Below are positions 1 to 19,885 of a DNA stretch of 42,384 bases, in pieces (the stretch's first letter is position 1; the number at the start of each line of letters is the position of its first letter). The notes under the pieces were generated by a model, which had not been told where the DNA came from, ran no database searches, and saw only the letters and a list, made by a program, of their open reading frames with translations. Made by a program: the position numbers and the translations under genes. This DNA comes from a virus: IMG/VR virus record IMGVR_UViG_3300003321_000136, positions 1 to 42,384 of that record; one strand, written 5' to 3'.

Positions 1-151
1 CTGGGCCGTAGACCTCATAGATTGCATCTGGCGCGAGCCAGTCGGCATACGCCGAGAGGTCGTAGGTCGGCTGCCCGTTGACCCCCGCCAGCGGCAATCT
101 GGTCGGTAGCCACATCTCGGCCAACGCGGCATTGATGCACTGCCGTAGCCC
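1..151. repeat. Terminal direct repeat, left copy
   Basis: These 151 bases recur exactly at 42234-42384. The minus-strand reading frame that runs off the left edge continues in the right copy, so this is the overlap left when a circular or circularly permuted genome is assembled as a linear contig. Whether the virion DNA has physical redundancy of this size cannot be told from the sequence. Confidence 0.97.
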
Positions 152-538
152 GCGCATCCGGTCGCGGTTCAGCGGCGGTAGCTCGGTGTGGATCTCGACC
201 TCGGCATTCGCCGGTACCGCCACACTCAGCGGTGTAGACAGGGTGAGTTCGCCGTTGGTCGTGTTCAGCCCGCGTTCGCCGACGCGCCGAATCTCGCCTG
301 CGCTCGGCCCCATAACGGGCATCACCCAGGCCGAGCGGTACTGATTCGGGTCCAGTCCGCCGACCAGGTCGTTGCTGATGATCGTGCCCGCGGTCGTGGC
401 TGGCGTGGACACGGTGACCAGCGTCAGGCTCTGGAATTCGTCGGACTGCGCCAGCAGACGCCGGATCGCCCCAAGGCTTCGACGGGTGTACTGCGAGCCG
501 AGCTGCGGTGGTTGCCCGGCTGGGATGATGCCAGGCAT
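1..538 (-). CDS. Probable head-tail adaptor, N-terminal part (cut by window edge)
   Basis: This is the 5' part of a virion gene that continues across the circle junction at 42233 and ends at 41797. Joined, it encodes 324 aa. The start ATG at 538 overlaps the stop of the upstream fibronectin-like gene by one base (TGATG). No catalytic motif is visible: the N-terminal half is a mixed alpha/beta stretch and the C-terminal half carries an Arg-rich helix ending in a WGGRDPKNFGDWPAW tail. It lies between the spike genes and a large beta-propeller-like protein. In podoviruses the ring-forming adaptor is usually next to the nozzle protein (as gp11 and gp12 of T7), so an adaptor role is inferred from position only. 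Confidence 0.75.
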   Translation of the reverse strand, partial: MPGIIPAGQPPQLGSQYTRRSLGAIRRLLAQSDEFQSLTLVTVSTPATTAGTIISNDLVGGLDPNQYRSAWVMPVMGPSAGEIRRVGERGLNTTNGELTLSTPLSVAVPANAEVEIHTELPPLNRDRMRGLRQCINAALAEMWLPTRLPLAGVNGQPTYDLSAYADWLAPDAIYEVYGP

Positions 539-1107
539 CAGCTCACCACCAGCAGTTGAGAGGTAGACGAGGTCGTAGTCACGGCGCCGACGGTGAACGG
601 AATGCTCGCGCTAATGCCCTCCGTGCCTGGCGTGCTCCGTCCGTGCGCGCGGCCGATGTAGGAACCGGTCGAGAGGGCGGGTAGCGTGATCGAATGCGTC
701 AGTCTTCGGACGGGGTCAAGCGGCGTGGTCGAGGAGTTCGCGAACGTGGTATCCGTGCTGACCGTGTACTCGAACCAGGTCGAAGCGGGAATGTCGGTGT
801 TCCAGTTGAACCCCACGGGCGCACCGGCTGAACCGACCGTGAGCGTCGTCAGCCCGCTCCCAGGCGTGCCCGCCACGTTTCGAGAGATAGCGTTGATGTT
901 GTAGGTCTGCCCGCCGACCAACCCTGTCAGATGGACGCTATGGCTGGTGACGCGCCGCGGGTCGAGGTCAGTAAACAGGTGCGTCTGGCCAGTAACCCAG
1001 TATTCGACCTGAGACGAGCCGGCGACGTCGGTCGTCCATGTGACGGTCGCTGAGCCGCTGCCGCCCGCGACGACAACGAACTCGTACGGCCCAATGTCGA
1101 TCGGCAT
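538..1107 (-). CDS. Fibronectin type III-like spike extension, in frame with upstream beta-helix
   Basis: The 189-aa product begins MPIDIGPYEF and then shows two consecutive Ig/fibronectin-like beta sandwiches, each with the pattern of an aromatic strand, an SHSVHLTGL or THSITLPAL strand and a closing valine-rich strand. Such domains in tail proteins commonly bind carbohydrate or act as spacers. The ATG directly follows the TAA of the beta-helix gene in the same reading frame. The opening IDIGPYEF is the motif that normally closes a choice-of-anchor-Q type beta-helix. It therefore looks like the C-terminal part of one ancestral protein. It may be made by readthrough, by re-initiation at TAAATG, or as a separate subunit. 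Confidence 0.8.
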   Translation of the reverse strand: MPIDIGPYEFVVVAGGSGSATVTWTTDVAGSSQVEYWVTGQTHLFTDLDPRRVTSHSVHLTGLVGGQTYNINAISRNVAGTPGSGLTTLTVGSAGAPVGFNWNTDIPASTWFEYTVSTDTTFANSSTTPLDPVRRLTHSITLPALSTGSYIGRAHGRSTPGTEGISASIPFTVGAVTTTSSTSQLLVVS

Positions 1108-1110
1108 TTA
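1108..1110 (-). other. In-frame TAA inside a conserved domain, candidate recoding site
   Basis: On the minus strand the codons read ACT CGG TAA ATG CCG ATC GAC ATT GGG. The stop falls between TIDYEGTTR and MPIDIGPYEF, which in homologous beta-helix proteins are neighbouring parts of one motif. No frame change occurs across it. Readthrough, re-initiation at the abutting ATG, or a recent nonsense mutation would all fit. Confidence 0.7.
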
Positions 1111-2184
1111 CCGAGTCGTCCCCTCGTAGTCGATCGTCGGGGCATTCGAGGTCGTGCCAGCGTTGCGCGCGGGGCTGCCGCTGGTCAGGTGATAGTCGGC
1201 CGTGCTGTTGACCAGCGGTGTCGTCCACGGCCCCGGCGCGGCCTGATAGTTGACCATCAGCGGGTCGGCCGTGATCGTCCCGGTGACGCCCGACGTGACG
1301 CTGCTGCTGACCGGCGTGGTGCAGTTCCAGATCAGGTTGTCGGTCCAGGTGTTGCCCGTGCCGACGTTGCCGAAGATATGGATGCCCGTGGGGCAGTCGA
1401 TGATTTCGTTGTTGTTGGTCTTGCAGTTGGCCGACGGGACCGACGTGGTGGGCAGCGGGGCGTCACCCGTGCCAATCACGATGCCGCCGCCGCGGTGCGA
1501 GAAGATCAGATTGTTCGAGCACACCATTGCGGTCCCGGCGTGCCACGTCTGGACACCCCAGCCACCACACCGATAGATGATGTTGTTTTCGACGATCGCG
1601 TTTGCCTGACTGACGTAGACGGCGAAGCATAGGGACGTGACGGTCGTCCCGTAGCCGATGTCGTGGATGACGCACTCGGTCACTTCACAGTTGGAGGCGA
1701 ATGGGGGACTGTTGCTGCCGGTGAAGTAGTCCAGCAGTACCCCACTGCCGCCGTTGCCGCCGGCCGCGTCGACCACGGTCCGCGAGATATCGTGAACGTG
1801 GCAGCGACGGAAGCAGTTGAAGCCGACCGGACTGCTCGAATGCAGCCCGACGCGGTTGGTCGTCGAGCTACCCGGCGACACATCGAAGCCCAGGAAGTCC
1901 TGGTAGGCCCCGGAGAGCTCGACACACGCGTTGTTGCCCGTGCCGCTGTCCGCTACGGCGTTGATCTTCGCGCCCCAGCGGTTCGTCGACTGCCAGACAA
2001 TCCGGCTAGTGCTGGTGCCGGACTTGTTGAGTACGGGCGTTTCGTTGTACGTACCGTCGGCGACGTTGACGGTGTCACCGGCGACGACCACACTGTTCGC
2101 CTTCGCGAAGGTTGCGAACGGCGTCGCCGCCGACGTGCCGTTATTCGTGTTGCTGCCGGTTGTCGCGATGTAGTAGGTCGCCAT
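1108..2184 (-). CDS. Right-handed beta-helix tail spike (pectate lyase-like fold)
   Basis: The 358-aa protein opens with YYIATTGSNTNNGTSAATPF and a GDTVNVADGTY motif, the standard entrance of secreted and phage parallel beta-helix proteins of the pectate lyase/DUF1565 type. Repeated N-rich rungs follow (ENNIIY, CSNNLIF, TNNNEII, TDNLIWN). It ends with the GSPARNAGT and IDYEGTTR motifs, which in relatives lead straight into a DIGAYE-type strand. That strand is supplied by the next ORF after a single TAA. Likely role: trimeric spike that binds or cleaves surface polysaccharide; the cleavage chemistry cannot be read here. It starts four bases after the GH26 spike gene. Confidence 0.85.
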   Translation of the reverse strand: MATYYIATTGSNTNNGTSAATPFATFAKANSVVVAGDTVNVADGTYNETPVLNKSGTSTSRIVWQSTNRWGAKINAVADSGTGNNACVELSGAYQDFLGFDVSPGSSTTNRVGLHSSSPVGFNCFRRCHVHDISRTVVDAAGGNGGSGVLLDYFTGSNSPPFASNCEVTECVIHDIGYGTTVTSLCFAVYVSQANAIVENNIIYRCGGWGVQTWHAGTAMVCSNNLIFSHRGGGIVIGTGDAPLPTTSVPSANCKTNNNEIIDCPTGIHIFGNVGTGNTWTDNLIWNCTTPVSSSVTSGVTGTITADPLMVNYQAAPGPWTTPLVNSTADYHLTSGSPARNAGTTSNAPTIDYEGTTR

Positions 2185-2187
2185 GGT

Positions 2188-4326
2188 TCAGGCCGCCACC
2201 AGGGAGGAAATGACCGGCCCGGCGAGCCAGGCGCTGTAAAGGTCGTCGGCTGATTCGTCGGTGATGAAGTTGTCGTAGACGCCGAGAATGACGGCGCTCG
2301 CGAGGTTCATCAGCGGCTGGTTCGCTGGCGTCACACCCGTGTTATTGATCTGGTAGACCTGGAGCGGCGCGGCGCCCGCGGTGTACGCGCCAGTCTTGCC
2401 GGTGCTCGCTGGCTGGGCCACGCCGTCGAGGCGACCCACAATCGGCAGGGTGTCGCCGAGTCGGATACGGATAACCCAGAAGTGCCAGACTCCGAAGAAG
2501 CCAGACGCCGGATAGCTCACGCTCAGCGAGGCGAACGTGCCGCCATTGTTCTGGTTCATCGTGAAGCCCCAGGTCGTCGCGCCCATGGGGGTCTGGTATT
2601 CGTAGTTGTTGCCGCCGGTGAACGTGGCTTTCGAGAACAGCTGCCCCGTCACCGTTGGCGCGGACGGCAGCTGGAAGGCTGACACGATGGTCATTTCCCC
2701 GGTCGTCGCGTTCGGGCTCCAATCGGCGCTGCTGGCCACACTGGCGAAGTTGCCCGCCGTACCGGAGGATCGGCCTGCCGTCTTCGACGGTTCGGCAGGG
2801 ACGGAGCTGCTGGCGGACCCCAGACCGATCGAGCCGGTGACGGTCATGGGCCGCGCGCCGAGCACATCGGCGAGGGTGGTCGAGCCGCTCGGGTCCCACT
2901 GTGGCCAGCCACCCTTCAGACCGCCAATCGACTTCAGGACTTCGAGGAAGCGCTCGTTCGGCGTGGTAACGGCCTGGTCCTGGAAGGGAATCCAGAATTT
3001 GCCGCTGACGTCGGTCGCCATCTGGCCGCCAGCGAGGAAGCGCCCTTCGTTGAACCAGGAGCGGAACTCGGCCAGGTCGATGTTGTTGAACTGCCCGGCC
3101 TGCCCGTCGTAGTCCATCGCCCATGACGTGCTGGTGTCGGTGTACTGAGTCCAGAAGTCTAGGATGGCCTTGATGCGCGGCATCGTGGGGAGGTCTAGCC
3201 GGCTCTGGGCGATCATCGCCTTGCGGGCGATGCGGTCGACCATGATCCCCTGGCCCATCGTGGTGATCGTGGGGACCGCGTTGGAGTTATTGACCTGCAC
3301 CGTGTTCGTGGTCGAATTCCAGCTGTTGACGGTGTACTGACCATTCACGCTCGAGGGCGTAAAGCTATAGAGCTCGAAGCCTTGCGTCGCGGCTGGCGCG
3401 TGTGTCGGTGCCGCGCTGAGAACGATATTCCAGTGACCGGCACCATCGGATGTGACCGACGTCACAGCCTTGTTTTCGGACTGCCACTTGCCGCCGAAGT
3501 TGGTTTCGCCGACGAGAATGGGCTTGCTCGGGTGCAGGTTGCAGAGCTCGGTATAGGTTGCCTTGAGGCCGCCGCCGACCGTGTTCCAAAACTGCGTGAT
3601 GCTCTTGCCGGCCTGTGGTGAGCCCTTGCCGACGTAGGAGTCGAAGGCGAGCCAGTCCACGTAATTGTCGCCGGGGTACATCTGCGCCGGAGTGATCGTC
3701 TCCGACGTGAGAAAGTTGTTGGGGCACCACACGGCGATGTGGTTCCACGGCTTCGGGACATTGGCATAGACACTGTTCCGAATACCGATCACGCGCTGCC
3801 ACCCGGCGAGAAAATCGGCGAGCGTGTTCGTCCAGGTGTTGCCGCCGAACGTTACTGAGAGCGTCCCGGTCGGCCCGAACTGCCACGGGAATTGCCCACT
3901 TAAATTCGGCTCCCAAGCATATCGCTCGGCTACTGGCTTTCCCCAATTTCGGATATTTGTGAAATGGTCGGTCCAATACGCGTCCCAAGTACCGCTGGCT
4001 TGAGCCGCTGGGCGGAATGAGAAGTCAGCCGCGTGGTTCGTGAAATCCCACCAGCCCATTTCAATGAGCGGCATCATTCCGTGCGCGATCGCGGCATCCA
4101 ACATGGGCTGCATGGACGACCAGGGAGTCGTGCCGCCGCTGCCGTTGCCTTGCTTGGTGGACATGTGGATGATGGACGGCCACTTACCGCCCATGCTGTT
4201 GATCCAACGGGTCAATGCTGAATCGGTGGGAGGATAGTTACCGCCACCGTTGAAGCTCGGGGCGCCTGAGCCGTTCTGGCCGTAGTCGATCATCGGCCCT
4301 CGGAGGATCGTTTCGAGGCCCGCCAC
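2188..4326 (-). CDS. Tail spike with GH26-like glycosidase domain and C-terminal lectin-like domain
   Basis: Residues about 10-430 of this 712-aa protein resemble glycoside hydrolase family 26 (mannanase/xylanase clan): WEPN near residue 139 carries the likely acid/base Glu, VWCPNNF and YPGDNYVDWLAFDSYVG form the usual core strands, and LVGETN places the nucleophile near Glu274. A beta-rich insert of about 75 residues (286-360) interrupts the barrel before the RIKAILDFW strand. Residues about 490-712 look like a concanavalin/LamG-type sandwich. Family knowledge supports hydrolysis of beta-linked hexose or pentose polymers, so this is a probable depolymerase; the substrate is unknown. The GTG start overlaps the upstream TAG by one base. 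Confidence 0.82.
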   Translation of the reverse strand: MAGLETILRGPMIDYGQNGSGAPSFNGGGNYPPTDSALTRWINSMGGKWPSIIHMSTKQGNGSGGTTPWSSMQPMLDAAIAHGMMPLIEMGWWDFTNHAADFSFRPAAQASGTWDAYWTDHFTNIRNWGKPVAERYAWEPNLSGQFPWQFGPTGTLSVTFGGNTWTNTLADFLAGWQRVIGIRNSVYANVPKPWNHIAVWCPNNFLTSETITPAQMYPGDNYVDWLAFDSYVGKGSPQAGKSITQFWNTVGGGLKATYTELCNLHPSKPILVGETNFGGKWQSENKAVTSVTSDGAGHWNIVLSAAPTHAPAATQGFELYSFTPSSVNGQYTVNSWNSTTNTVQVNNSNAVPTITTMGQGIMVDRIARKAMIAQSRLDLPTMPRIKAILDFWTQYTDTSTSWAMDYDGQAGQFNNIDLAEFRSWFNEGRFLAGGQMATDVSGKFWIPFQDQAVTTPNERFLEVLKSIGGLKGGWPQWDPSGSTTLADVLGARPMTVTGSIGLGSASSSVPAEPSKTAGRSSGTAGNFASVASSADWSPNATTGEMTIVSAFQLPSAPTVTGQLFSKATFTGGNNYEYQTPMGATTWGFTMNQNNGGTFASLSVSYPASGFFGVWHFWVIRIRLGDTLPIVGRLDGVAQPASTGKTGAYTAGAAPLQVYQINNTGVTPANQPLMNLASAVILGVYDNFITDESADDLYSAWLAGPVISSLVAA

Positions 4327-5228
4327 TAGCTCACCGCCGCCGAAATCTCGAGCACGCCACCGACGTACGTGGGAGTACCGGTGACGCTGGTAATCACGAA
4401 TTCGTAGATGTCACCGCCCTGAAAAGCCTGCCCAGCTGCCAGCGTGCCGGCTGAGCCGAAAGCGCGCGAGGTCGTCGAATCCGATGTGATCGAATGGTCA
4501 GTCGAAAGCAGGTTCGTGATGACGCCAGCTCGGATGCGGCGCGCGTTGAACAGTGTGCCCGTGCCACCATCCCGCCGATCGCGGAGGGCGGTAATCGTGC
4601 CCGTCATGCCAGGCGGGACCTCGAACGCTGGAATGTAGATCGGGAATGCTGGGCTGCTTGCAGGGTTGGCGTAGCCGCCAGTCTTCGAGTCCAGCAGCGT
4701 GTGCGTGTGGACACTGGCCGCCTTACCGTTCAGATCCGCTTGCAGGTTGCCGATGTCGGTTTCGGCATGCGTATGGCTGAGATTCGCCTTGCCCGCGAGG
4801 TCGGTTCCCAGATTGCCGATCTGGTCCTCGGTGTGGGTATGGACCAGCGGCGCTTTCGACGCGAGGTCAGGTGGCAGCCCTGAAACGTCGCCCTCGATGT
4901 GCGTATGAGCCGCAACCGGGCCACCGCTGCCGCCTGTACCGCCGCCACTCGCCGTCGGGTCTACGAACGGCAGATAGTCGAAGTAATCGACCCCGTCGAT
5001 AGTGACCTTTTGCATGGCCATCTTGCCGGCGGTGATCCACAGTGGCGGCCCTTTGCCATCGATCCCGGTGGTAACCGGCAGCGTGATCGTGCTGGTGCTG
5101 GTGTCGTCGGCGTAGATCGTGTCAGGGATGCGCGCGCGGGTGTGTGGGTCGACGATGTCGACCGACAGACCGGCGACCACGTTGCCCTGAGAGTCCTGCC
5201 AGAACGGGACTGCGAGCGCGCGGCCCAT
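4326..5228 (-). CDS. Tail fibre protein with HTH repeats
   Basis: The 300-aa product has a compact N-terminal domain (about 1-95), a Gly-rich linker, and a shaft of four repeats of the form HTH...DIGNLxxDLxGKA (about 105-175). These are typical of trimeric phage fibre shafts, in which the histidine clusters coordinate metal or stack at the trimer axis. A beta-rich C-terminal domain follows. It sits directly upstream of the two spike genes and overlaps both neighbours by one base, so it is probably a fibre or the attachment platform for the spikes. Confidence 0.82.
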   Translation of the reverse strand: MGRALAVPFWQDSQGNVVAGLSVDIVDPHTRARIPDTIYADDTSTSTITLPVTTGIDGKGPPLWITAGKMAMQKVTIDGVDYFDYLPFVDPTASGGGTGGSGGPVAAHTHIEGDVSGLPPDLASKAPLVHTHTEDQIGNLGTDLAGKANLSHTHAETDIGNLQADLNGKAASVHTHTLLDSKTGGYANPASSPAFPIYIPAFEVPPGMTGTITALRDRRDGGTGTLFNARRIRAGVITNLLSTDHSITSDSTTSRAFGSAGTLAAGQAFQGGDIYEFVITSVTGTPTYVGGVLEISAAVS

Positions 5229-5497
5229 CAGTTACCGGATGGCCTCGCGAGCGCGACTTGTGCCGTCAGCATCGCGCGCACGTCTTCAGCGAGGTCCGGG
5301 TCTTTCTGCAATCGCTCCTGGACAATCCGCATCACGCGCTCTACCTCGCGCACCAGCGCGGGTCCGGATGCGCCCTGAATGACGGCGTCCATGTAGGCGT
5401 CGAGGCACTTCTCGCACATCTGCTCGACGTCGCCCAGGATGGCGCCAGCGCAGTCACAGTGGACGACTGACGACTCGGCTATCGGTTGTAGCGTCAT
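5228..5497 (-). CDS. Small cysteine-containing virion-operon protein
   Basis: The 89-aa product is not recognised. An N-terminal segment has four cysteines (CDC and CEKC) spaced as a possible small zinc site, followed by a long amphipathic helix (about 45-85) suited to oligomerisation. It lies between the hairpin at 5515-5554 and the fibre gene and shares its TGA with the fibre start (TGATG). It may be a fibre assembly factor; nothing in the sequence proves that. Confidence 0.65.
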   Translation of the reverse strand: MTLQPIAESSVVHCDCAGAILGDVEQMCEKCLDAYMDAVIQGASGPALVREVERVMRIVQERLQKDPDLAEDVRAMLTAQVALARPSGN

Positions 5498-5514
5498 GGT
5501 GGCGTTGCCTGACT

Positions 5515-5554
5515 GCGGGACCCGGCCAGACCCCGATCGACGGCCGGACCCCGC
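5515..5554 (-). terminator. GC-rich hairpin between head and fibre modules
   Basis: GCGGG (5515-5519) pairs with CCCGC (5550-5554), and CCGGCC (5522-5527) pairs with GGCCGG (5542-5547), separated by a symmetrical two-base internal loop; the apical loop is 14 nt. There is no T-run on the minus-strand exit side, so this is more likely an attenuator or RNA-processing stem than a full intrinsic terminator. It fills the 74-bp gap between two late genes. Confidence 0.45.
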
Positions 5555-5571
5555 AAATCAGTCCTCTCCGA

Positions 5572-6078
5572 TCAGCTGAGGTTTTCCTTGACGTCGCCGA
5601 GCATCAGCCCGTGGCTGAAGTTGCGCGTGTTGGCATAGACGCCTTCGGTCAGTCGCGCGCCATCATGGACGCGCAGCTTCTCCAGCGACTTGATGTCGAT
5701 CAGAATTCCGTGGCCGCGCCAGGTGTCGCCTGGGCAGTTGTCGGCGCCACAGTTGCCGACCAGGCCCCATTCGTCGGTAGGCCGCCCGTCGCCGCCGAGT
5801 TTCGTCATCAGCGCGGACCCACGGGCCAGCGCCTGCAAGCGCATCGCGTGATTCGGGTCGGCCTCTGGTCCTGCCTCGGCGAAGACTTCCTTGGTCACCG
5901 CGCCACCGGCAATCTCGCCATTGGCTGGCAACTGCATCCCCATCGGGCCGTGGTTGATGGCCTTCGGGTCAGTCTTTTCCGCTTGCGGGTGGCCTTCGTT
6001 CCTGGCCGTGTTCGGATCGCCGGCCATACGGACCGTGCTCTCCGGCGGGGTGGTGTTGAGCTTCTGGTGTTCTGCCAT
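5572..6078 (-). CDS. Unrecognised head-module protein
   Basis: The 168-aa product has a polar, probably disordered first half (TTPPES, NTARNEGHPQAEKTDPKA) and a more ordered second half with GNCGADNCPGDTW, where two cysteines could form a disulfide or metal site, then a helical KSLEKLRVHDGARL segment. I chose the ATG at 6078, preceded by AAAGGAGC at good spacing, over a longer Arg-rich open frame upstream. Position two genes after the major capsid protein suggests a minor head or decoration protein. Function unknown. Confidence 0.7.
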   Translation of the reverse strand: MAEHQKLNTTPPESTVRMAGDPNTARNEGHPQAEKTDPKAINHGPMGMQLPANGEIAGGAVTKEVFAEAGPEADPNHAMRLQALARGSALMTKLGGDGRPTDEWGLVGNCGADNCPGDTWRGHGILIDIKSLEKLRVHDGARLTEGVYANTRNFSHGLMLGDVKENLS

Positions 6079-6095
6079 GATTCCGCAAGCTCCTT

Positions 6096-6575
6096 TCAGC
6101 GGGCGCGCGGGCCGAGGACCTTCATCTGGTAGACGGCGTCTTCGTCGAACATGTCGTTGGGCTTGTCGCCGTCGCGATACGCCCACGGGTTCTGCGTGTA
6201 GGCGATCAGGTCAGCGATGGATTGGGGAACCTCGATGGTGATCCCTTTCCATGTGTTGAACTCCACGCCGTTGACGCGGAACTGAGCCGGGTACTTGCCG
6301 CCGTGGGTACGTGCCACGTTCTTCTCGAAATCACTCTCGAGCGGAATCATGGTCAGCACCTTGGGCTCGGCGGCCCAGTGCGCCAACACACGCGCCTGCT
6401 CGTCCTGCAACGGCTCGAGCGGCTCGGGCGGCTTCGGCGGCTGCTGTGGGCTGGCCGTTGCCACGAGCGCGGCGAATGCCTGCAGCAGCGCCTGTGGGTC
6501 GAGAGCAGGCGCCGGCTCCGGCTGCGCCTGCCCCTCGAACTCCCCAGCCTCGAGCTTGCGAACGTTGAGGGTCAC
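6096..6575 (-). CDS. Unrecognised protein following the major capsid gene
   Basis: The 159-aa product starts at the GTG at 6575, whose GTGA overlaps the capsid stop. It has an N-terminal helix, a proline-rich linker (PQQPPKPPEPLEP, about residues 44-58) and a C-terminal globular part with RVNGVEFNTWKGITIEVPQSI. A flexible linker joined to a small fold, directly downstream of the capsid gene, would suit a capsid decoration or completion protein, but no family was recognised. Confidence 0.7.
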   Translation of the reverse strand: MTLNVRKLEAGEFEGQAQPEPAPALDPQALLQAFAALVATASPQQPPKPPEPLEPLQDEQARVLAHWAAEPKVLTMIPLESDFEKNVARTHGGKYPAQFRVNGVEFNTWKGITIEVPQSIADLIAYTQNPWAYRDGDKPNDMFDEDAVYQMKVLGPRAR

Positions 6576-7531
6576 GGGGTGACCGCCGTCTCGAGCCGCT
6601 CGATGCGGTTGGAATCCAGAACCTTCGCCACAAAGGCGACCTTCCAACCCAGATACGCGCGCTGGTTGAGCGGGTCGCTCTTGCTGTCGGTGTCCAGCGG
6701 AACGACAATCACGTTGACCGCGCCCTTGTTGGTCTGCGGATTCAGCGCCTGCAGCCCCATACCGGCCAGGTCGGTGACGCCGTAAGACTGCGGACCGTAG
6801 ATCACTGCGGCGTGGACGTCGATACCAGCAGCACCAGCACCAGTGAAGATCGGCACGTCATTGGTCTTGGTCAGCAGCGCGCCGTACACCGGAACCAGCT
6901 GGTTCATCTTGAGGTCGCTGGTGCTGGTGTAGATGCTCAGGTTCTGGTAGTTCGTGTCACCCGTCAGGTCGAATGCCTGAGAGGCAGACACGACGCCGTG
7001 GTACATGCCATCGGGGAACTTCGGCGCGTTCAGCTTCTCCAGATCGCGGACGACCTTACGGATGTCGAGCACCGTCAGGTTGTCGCCAGCGGCCACGGTA
7101 ACGCGGGAGGCGCGGCCGTTGGCGTAGCGGACGCTGGAGTTGGCACCGAGCTCGGTCACCACCACACGGTGGATGGTCTGGCCAGCCTGCTCACCGAGTA
7201 CCTCGACGCCAGCGGTGACGTTGTCGTCGATGCCCGCGGTGATCAGCAGGTCGGACTCGGTCAGGAAATCGCCGTACTGCGCGATCGTCGCGGTGATCGC
7301 CGTCTGCGCCAGGGAGTTGCCCGCCGGCGTGACGCCTTCGGTCAGGGCTGTGGTCGCCAGCGAGAGTGCGCTGTAGCGGCGCCACTGGGCCACGGTGCCG
7401 TTGTTGCGCGGAATAGTGGCCTTCTGGCCATCCTGAAGGAGCGGCAGGTAGGGGAGTGCTCGCTTCAGCAGCGTCCCGATGTAGAACGTTCGCTGCTGGG
7501 TGGACAGGCCACCGTAGGTTGTCGTTGGCAA
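6572..7531 (-). CDS. Major capsid protein, N4-gp56 family
   Basis: The 319-aa length and the motifs match the N4-gp56-type HK97-fold capsid family: TTTYGGLSTQQRTFYIG at the N-terminus, then QWRRYSALSLATTALTEGVTP, ITATIAQYGDFLTESDLL, and a C-terminal DPLNQRAYLGWKVAFVAKVL strand pair. It follows the scaffold gene, as expected. The only suitable start is a TTG at 7531 preceded by GAGGT eight bases upstream, inside the end of the scaffold gene. That is an unusual initiator for what should be the most abundant virion protein. Confidence 0.9.
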   Translation of the reverse strand: MPTTTYGGLSTQQRTFYIGTLLKRALPYLPLLQDGQKATIPRNNGTVAQWRRYSALSLATTALTEGVTPAGNSLAQTAITATIAQYGDFLTESDLLITAGIDDNVTAGVEVLGEQAGQTIHRVVVTELGANSSVRYANGRASRVTVAAGDNLTVLDIRKVVRDLEKLNAPKFPDGMYHGVVSASQAFDLTGDTNYQNLSIYTSTSDLKMNQLVPVYGALLTKTNDVPIFTGAGAAGIDVHAAVIYGPQSYGVTDLAGMGLQALNPQTNKGAVNVIVVPLDTDSKSDPLNQRAYLGWKVAFVAKVLDSNRIERLETAVTP

Positions 7532-7542
7532 GGCTCAGGACC

Positions 7543-8421
7543 TCAGGTGTTTGCGCCGAGAGCCGCCAGGCCGCCGGCCTTCGCTCTGGCAATGGCCTCT
7601 TCCGTGGGGAGTCCATCTGCGCCGAGTAGTCCTTCGAGCAGTCCGCCTTTGGTCGCCGTGCCGTTGCCCGTCGCTGGCTGTGAGCCGTTGACGACCGTTC
7701 GGGTCTGCAGATCCTTGATCTGTCCTTTCAGCCCCGCAATCTGGTCGTCGTACTCGGCCTTGACGGCTTTGGTCGCAAACTCGTGCATCAGCTTCAGCGC
7801 GTCGGGGCCACTCTTGGCCGCGAACAGCTGTTTGATAGCTGGGCCATCCACACCGGGCAGGGTGTCGAGTGCTTCGATGCCCTGGGAGAAGTGCGCCAGG
7901 ACATCTCGGTTGGCCGCTTCATAGAGCGGCGCGAGCTCGTTCTGCGCAGTGTGGATTTCGGCCAGTCGCTGGCGAGCTTGCGTGAGCGTCGCGTAATCGA
8001 CGTTCGGATCGGCAATCGTACGCTCGAGCCGTTGCCGTTCCTCGGGCGTCCCCAGCCGCTGTCCCCATTTCTGCTGGACGGCGCTACGGCTCGCGTTGGT
8101 TTCGGCAAGCTGGCGCTCCAGGTCGGCGGCACGCTGTTCAGCAGCCTGCGCGCGTTCGTAGAAGCGGCGAGCGTCTTTGCGACTGAATTGCTGCTCGGTT
8201 GTGGACTCTTGCCCGTTCGATTGCTCCGGCGCTTCGGTATCGCTGTCCGCGGCCTGGTCCTGTGACGGCTCACGCGGCGTGTCGACGACCTCTGCGGGTG
8301 CTGCAGTCGGAGCAGCCTGCTCAGCCGGCGCGAATGCCGCCTCTTGGGCGGCAGTGGCCATCATCTGATCGATGGCGGCCATCGTGTCGGCTGGTGCTGC
8401 TGTGGTCGGACTGTCGGTCAC
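7543..8421 (-). CDS. Capsid scaffold protein
   Basis: The 292-aa product has an acidic, Ala/Pro/Gln-rich disordered N-terminus (about 1-75), a long charged coiled coil (about 78-165, FYERAQAAEQRAADLERQLAETN) and a short C-terminal helical segment after a Gly/Thr linker. This composition and its place immediately upstream of the major capsid gene are the usual signature of a procapsid scaffold. The GTG start at 8421 has GGAG five bases ahead and lies downstream of the structured leader at 8458-8526. Confidence 0.85.
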   Translation of the reverse strand: MTDSPTTAAPADTMAAIDQMMATAAQEAAFAPAEQAAPTAAPAEVVDTPREPSQDQAADSDTEAPEQSNGQESTTEQQFSRKDARRFYERAQAAEQRAADLERQLAETNASRSAVQQKWGQRLGTPEERQRLERTIADPNVDYATLTQARQRLAEIHTAQNELAPLYEAANRDVLAHFSQGIEALDTLPGVDGPAIKQLFAAKSGPDALKLMHEFATKAVKAEYDDQIAGLKGQIKDLQTRTVVNGSQPATGNGTATKGGLLEGLLGADGLPTEEAIARAKAGGLAALGANT

Positions 8422-19189: not shown

Positions 19190-19477
19190 TCAGCCGAAAC
19201 TCACGTCGTAGGGAAACTGGAGCTTGCCCTCGGAGTCCGGGCGCATCTTGATCGTGCCGGGCGGGTTGTACGTGACCGTAGGCTGACCAGCCGGCAGATC
19301 GACCGGGATCTCCGTCGGCGGATTGGTGGACGTGTCGGTAAAAACCAGCGTCGGTGTAGCCGCGGCTGGCTTCGTACACGTGACCGCGCTGATATTTCCA
19401 TTGGTCGCGTTGTAGGTGACCGTGACCACGATCTGACCGTCCGGCGTGTCTTCTTGGGCAAGCGTTCCGGTAGCCAT
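19190..19477 (-). CDS. Small beta-rich virion-operon protein
   Basis: The 95-aa product is a compact beta domain (DGQIVVTVTYNATNGNISAVTCT, then TPTLVFTDTSTN and GKLQFPYDVSFG) with one cysteine. It follows the 135-aa gene without a gap and precedes the 251-aa gene by one base. It is probably a structural accessory subunit; no family recognised. Confidence 0.65.
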   Translation of the reverse strand: MATGTLAQEDTPDGQIVVTVTYNATNGNISAVTCTKPAAATPTLVFTDTSTNPPTEIPVDLPAGQPTVTYNPPGTIKMRPDSEGKLQFPYDVSFG

Positions 19478-19885
19478 CTATGCAGCCTCCGTGATGCTGT
19501 GGCTCGAGAGTGTGAGCGTGGCGCCCGACGTGATCGACGTCGGTGTGACCGTCATGTCGGTGCCCACATCACCCTGCAGCTGGCAGACACCACCACTGGT
19601 GTAAACCCGGAAAAAGCTGGCTGTGCCGGTGTTCGCCGCGGTCGCGGTGAGCGGCGTGCCATTCAGCGCAGCTGAGACGGTTGCGCCCTCGGCGCCTGTA
19701 GCCGAAGCGTAGGCCGTGGCGCCCAGCGTGAACGTGCCGAGCAGGTTGCTTGCCGCCGGGTCGGCGGTGCTCGGCGTGGCTGGCTTCGTACCAGCCCACA
19801 CTTTGATCGTGCCCGTGGAGCCGACGGCCGTACTGACCGCGTTCACTCTGGTCTGGCGTAGGGTGTTCAGGACGTTGACAGTCAT
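19478..19885 (-). CDS. Beta-rich virion protein
   Basis: The 135-aa product begins MTVNVLNTLRQTRVNAVST and continues as Thr/Ala/Gly-rich strands (GTIKVWAGTKPATP, NLLGTFTLGATAYA, FRVYTSGGVCQLQGDVG). This resembles small structural proteins I have seen annotated only as hypothetical in tailed phages. No catalytic residues are evident. Decoration or head-fibre subunit is the most likely class, from its place in the block. Confidence 0.65.
   Translation of the reverse strand: MTVNVLNTLRQTRVNAVSTAVGSTGTIKVWAGTKPATPSTADPAASNLLGTFTLGATAYASATGAEGATVSAALNGTPLTATAANTGTASFFRVYTSGGVCQLQGDVGTDMTVTPTSITSGATLTLSSHSITEAA

Follow-up and report, generated by a model that had tools for sequence, protein, structure and literature searches.

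The window analysed here, by which we mean the whole stretch of 42,384 bases, is a single IMG/VR virus record from an uncultured virus. On its minus strand, a reading frame for a right-handed beta-helix protein (ORF A) starts with ATG and is closed by a TAA, and a second reading frame (ORF B) follows without a gap (0 nt), its ATG beginning in frame at the adjoining base (Table 1). The minus-strand letters across the junction are ATC GAC TAC GAG GGG ACG ACT CGG, then the stop TAA, then ATG CCG ATC GAC ATT GGG CCG TAC GAG TTC, with IDYEGTTR as the terminus of ORF A and MPIDIGPYEF as the opening of ORF B; read through the TAA, the two frames together give 548 residues. The original prediction had placed both the stop and the directly following frame correctly, without giving the strand.

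Table 1. Features at the stop-start junction and in its surroundings, in window coordinates.
Feature	Position	Strand	Remarks
Upstream gene, 712 aa	2188..4326	-	weak match to glycoside hydrolase family 26 (PF02156, 20.6 bits, cut-off 20.2)
ORF A, right-handed beta-helix protein, 358 aa	1108..2184	-	matches to PF13229, PF22842 and PF07602; C-terminus is the first part of the choice-of-anchor Q domain
Choice-of-anchor Q domain (NF041518)	1078..1206	-	six-frame search, 38.8 bits, one TAA inside
GAGGGG, possible Shine-Dalgarno sequence for ORF B	1111..1127	-	about 12-13 nt from the ATG, bad spacing
In-frame TAA	1108..1110	-	falls in the choice-of-anchor Q domain, within the variable linker of 4 residues that leads from the conserved Arg to D-I-G-P-Y-E
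ORF B, 189 aa	538..1107	-	final strand of the Q motif at its start, fn3-like sequence after it
Downstream gene (tail1), runs off the contig	5..538	-	conserved in related phages; 1-nt overlap with ORF B

Domain content and gene neighbourhood

ORF A scores 38.5 bits against PF13229 (cut-off 25.9) and belongs to the right-handed beta-helix proteins, with a likeness to enzymes that act on sugars; the helix begins directly at the N-terminus, with no recognisable virion anchor. ORF B is intact over its 189 codons, with a third-position GC of 0.80 like that of the neighbouring genes. Its match to fibronectin type III (PF00041) reaches 21.9 bits against a cut-off of 25, making it fn3-like at best, and the match to PF16656 (Pur_ac_phosph_N) at 25.8 bits likewise stays below the Pfam cut-off. 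The fibronectin-like character first proposed for this part is thus retained in a weakened form. The functional labels fared worse: neither ORF A nor ORF B has a match in a PHROG search, and a comparison with phage tail spikes gave no similarity to a known spike and no virion-binding N-terminal domain, which leaves the name spike unproven, and nothing was found to support a C-terminal receptor domain in ORF B. The AlphaFold2 model of the read-through product has a mean pLDDT of 39, too poor to judge the role of the last strand in the cap.

Related phages carry a major capsid protein 60-61% identical to that of the window (L002/L084, L081, L082 and L083), and in them the genes flanking the locus are kept. 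The region from 538 to 4326, which holds the GH26-like gene, ORF A and ORF B, is occupied by other genes in these relatives and by nothing in L081. Judged from this gene content, the three genes are a cassette in a variable accessory region. The closest phages are therefore uninformative about the split, whether for or against it, and a role of the cassette in host binding is something that we infer.

A choice-of-anchor Q domain crosses the stop

When the product is read through the TAA, the choice-of-anchor Q model NF041518 matches residues 328-369 with 35.3 bits, covering positions 14-57 of the 58 in the model, as against 24.4 bits for ORF A alone, which falls below the 25-bit cut-off; ORF B alone has no match. 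The gain from reading through is 11 bits, and the cut-off is reached only across the stop. This bears out the original proposal that the two frames share one continuous motif.

In the window, a linker of 4 residues joins the conserved Arg to D-I-G if the stop is counted as a residue. In 18 unbroken motifs from the loci that we fetched, the linker has 4 residues in 9, 6 residues in 8 and 7 residues in 1, and a linker of 3 was found in none of them; in the column of the window's ATG, none of the 18 has a Met. Among the hundred-odd choice-of-anchor Q matches surveyed in 296 genomes, all from another phylum, one other internal stop was seen. Internal stops are thus, as far as these matches indicate, rare in this domain, and the split motif of the window is more than chance.

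A bacterial choice-of-anchor Q domain (L062; genome G124, contig 209) is interrupted by a single in-frame TGA, at another residue than the one affected here (TDQR*FPKVGIRDIGAFE). Among the papers searched, none names "choice-of-anchor Q".

Homologues and the direction of change

Searching plasmids at the protein level gave a protein of Azospirillum ramasamyi (WP_111068220.1, 1e-29), whose alignment crosses the stop, and one of Massilia litorea (WP_193689246.1, 1e-19). A second Azospirillum protein is encoded close to the first, and a scan of viral contigs with the alignment of the Azospirillum and Massilia proteins yielded a phage contig (L043) with a protein of 1394 aa. These four homologues align across nearly all of ORF A plus the motif, at 31-39% identity. 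In the column of the stop they have E (Azospirillum), P (the second Azospirillum protein), S (the phage contig) and G (Massilia), so the sense codon that the original prediction had expected at this place in relatives is indeed there. Since a sense codon occupies the stop column in every one of the four full-length homologues, the split is derived, and on these alignments the direction of change is settled for the motif.

On the Azospirillum ramasamyi plasmid (L041), two beta-helix choice-of-anchor Q genes lie close together (1-764 and 2794-4662), the larger with CBM60.

The same conclusion does not extend to the tail. After the motif the homologues continue into CBM60 or into an extension bearing GH5, or the protein ends; relatives in which both parts are fused, which had been expected if the 548 residues were once a single protein, were not among them. 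No homologue carries the fn3 tail, so the evidence for an unbroken ancestor covers the beta-helix and Q motif only, and the proposal of one 548-aa protein in which a sense codon became TAA stands for the motif, on the evidence of the four homologues, but not for the fn3-like part. That the beta-helix/Q ancestor was also fused to an fn3-like tail is plausible.

Neither the read-through protein nor ORF B retrieved a relative when used directly to scan viral contigs, and our searches across phages, plasmids and viral contigs gave no relative of ORF B. A scan of viral contigs for TAAATG at the Q motif gave no match. A scan with a degenerate motif of the same linker length returned only L011, which is unbroken, and did not return the window itself, although the window matches the pattern; records nearly identical to the window may thus have been kept out of the scan, and little can be concluded from their absence. 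A scan for DIGPYEF returned mostly unrelated proteins and a few unbroken Q motifs. Three of its matches (L023, L028 and L037), which have other sequence after DIGPYEF, were considered as relatives of ORF B and set aside, the similarity not being convincing. The split is common to no close relative and may be unique to the window sequence.

The absence of any homologue combining a beta-helix with an fn3-like tail would be expected if these had always been two genes, the likeness of the ORF B opening to the Q motif being chance or the scar of a recombination. We regard this as very unlikely, since the motif stays in register across the stop, the linker length and D-I-G-P-Y-E are conserved, and reading through adds 11 bits to the domain score.

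Proposed translation of ORF B

Many gene junctions in this phage fall within -4 to +4 nt. One-nucleotide overlaps occur at 538 (the TGA of ORF B with the ATG of the next gene), 4326 and 5228, and several other junctions overlap by 4 nt. There is also a second pair of frames with zero gap and the same frame, a TAG-ATG at 19478/19477 on the minus strand (window positions 19190-19885), where the gene downstream has a good Shine-Dalgarno sequence. The upstream protein there belongs to phrog_3758 (virion structural) and reaches the natural end of that family, residue 133 of 135. The TAG-ATG is thus a true gene boundary, so a zero-gap stop-start is a working type of junction in this genome.

The TAA-ATG junction of ORF A and ORF B, with 0 nt from stop to start, lies inside the spacing of a few nucleotides expected of termination-reinitiation gene pairs. 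In Escherichia coli, overlapping pairs reinitiate efficiently, and at +2 nt two of three tested gene pairs drop by only 5-20% (PMC10666635). The GAGGGG ahead of ORF B has a duplex energy of -6.4 kcal/mol, a strength that roughly one random position in ten reaches. It is badly spaced, however, and ORF B therefore probably depends on coupling. ATG makes up 1.8% of codons in the phage, giving a chance of about 2% of finding one right behind a stop, so that an ATG straight behind a random nonsense mutation is unlikely.

Since zero-gap junctions appear functional elsewhere in the genome and a chance ATG is unlikely, we favour, with moderate confidence, an in-frame gene split in which ORF B is made by coupled termination and reinitiation at the TAA-ATG. 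An accessory beta-helix gene with a C-terminal Q domain would have been split in frame when one linker codon became TAA, with ATG as the next codon, and two polypeptides would then be made from a single message. The ribosome that terminates ORF A at the TAA would restart at the abutting ATG to give the 189-aa product of ORF B, carrying the last strand of the Q motif plus the fn3-like part, and the two products may be held together non-covalently. The continuity of the domain across the TAA, the sense codon in the homologues and the lack of a Met in the 18 relatives argue for the split; the badly spaced Shine-Dalgarno sequence and the failure to find a relative with the fn3 tail argue against this reading. 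Where relatives have a single protein, this phage probably produces two neighbouring ones. A more elaborate form of the idea is a two-subunit device, in which the beta-helix is split in its C-terminal cap and the last strand is supplied in trans by the coupled fn3-like subunit, controlling how many particles carry the tail; we think it rather unlikely.

The chief competing explanation is that the TAA is a simple nonsense mutation or a consensus error. ORF A would then be truncated and ORF B expressed weakly if at all, with the ATG behind the stop a coincidence. The closest relatives lack the variable accessory cassette to which the gene belongs, so the phage may be able to do without it; the sequence comes from one record of an uncultured virus, and another choice-of-anchor Q gene in our survey has a single in-frame stop as well, at another residue. 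The roughly one-in-fifty coincidence that this explanation needs tells against it, as do an ORF B still open over 189 codons, with phage-like third-position GC and coupled to the gene that follows, and we consider it possible, with a probability well short of even.

Programmed readthrough of the TAA would yield a short beta-helix protein together with a minor fraction of the 548-aa product. It is compatible with the shared frame and the continuous motif, and a stem can be drawn downstream of the stop. The folding energy of that stem is, however, unspecific in such GC-rich DNA, and the window has no suppressor tRNA gene that we could find. Leaky UAA sites are rare in bacteria. The stop is found in no relative, all 4 full-length homologues having a sense codon where programmed readthrough would predict a conserved stop, and the ATG is left unexplained. 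UAA, moreover, is recognised by both release factors, RF1 and RF2 (PMC5009743). A literature search found no matching case of readthrough in a phage spike, and we hold this explanation to be very unlikely. Of the three outcomes originally envisaged, namely readthrough, re-initiation and recent inactivation of the C-terminal part, re-initiation thus fits best and readthrough worst. A reassignment of TAA to a sense codon in this virus can be rejected, since other predicted reading frames in the window end in TAA, TAG and TGA; the high GC and the lack of a suppressor tRNA gene in the window point the same way.

If both pieces are made and associate, the locus would be a snapshot of a phage surface protein in the course of becoming two subunits by way of a stop-start inside a domain; otherwise it would be one inactivating mutation in a swappable accessory gene. 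In either case the finding is real but modest, a derived in-frame split in a known kind of protein and a small, fairly ordinary gene-splitting event.

Comparison with known systems

Similarity between the window and the two bacterial proteins extends over the beta-helix and through the whole of the Q motif. In the Azospirillum ramasamyi protein WP_111068220.1 the motif is unbroken and is followed by a CBM60 module, and in the Massilia litorea protein WP_193689246.1 it is also unbroken and the protein ends after it. The protein of L043 (IMGVR_UViG_3300006175_000040, 4001-8185) is, like that of the window, encoded by a phage, has the same beta-helix (MATLYVSPTGSD) at its very start and contains the Q motif. 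Unlike the window, it is one unbroken protein with a long extension, a GH5 cellulase domain near its end and no fn3-like tail. The L043 gene thus fuses beta-helix, Q domain and GH5, while in the window the glycoside-hydrolase-like and beta-helix genes are separate neighbours.

With known translationally coupled gene pairs (PMC10666635) the junction has in common that stop and start are a few nucleotides apart. It differs from the usual coupled pairs, among which overlaps of -4 and -1 are commoner, in being in frame, at zero distance and within one protein domain.
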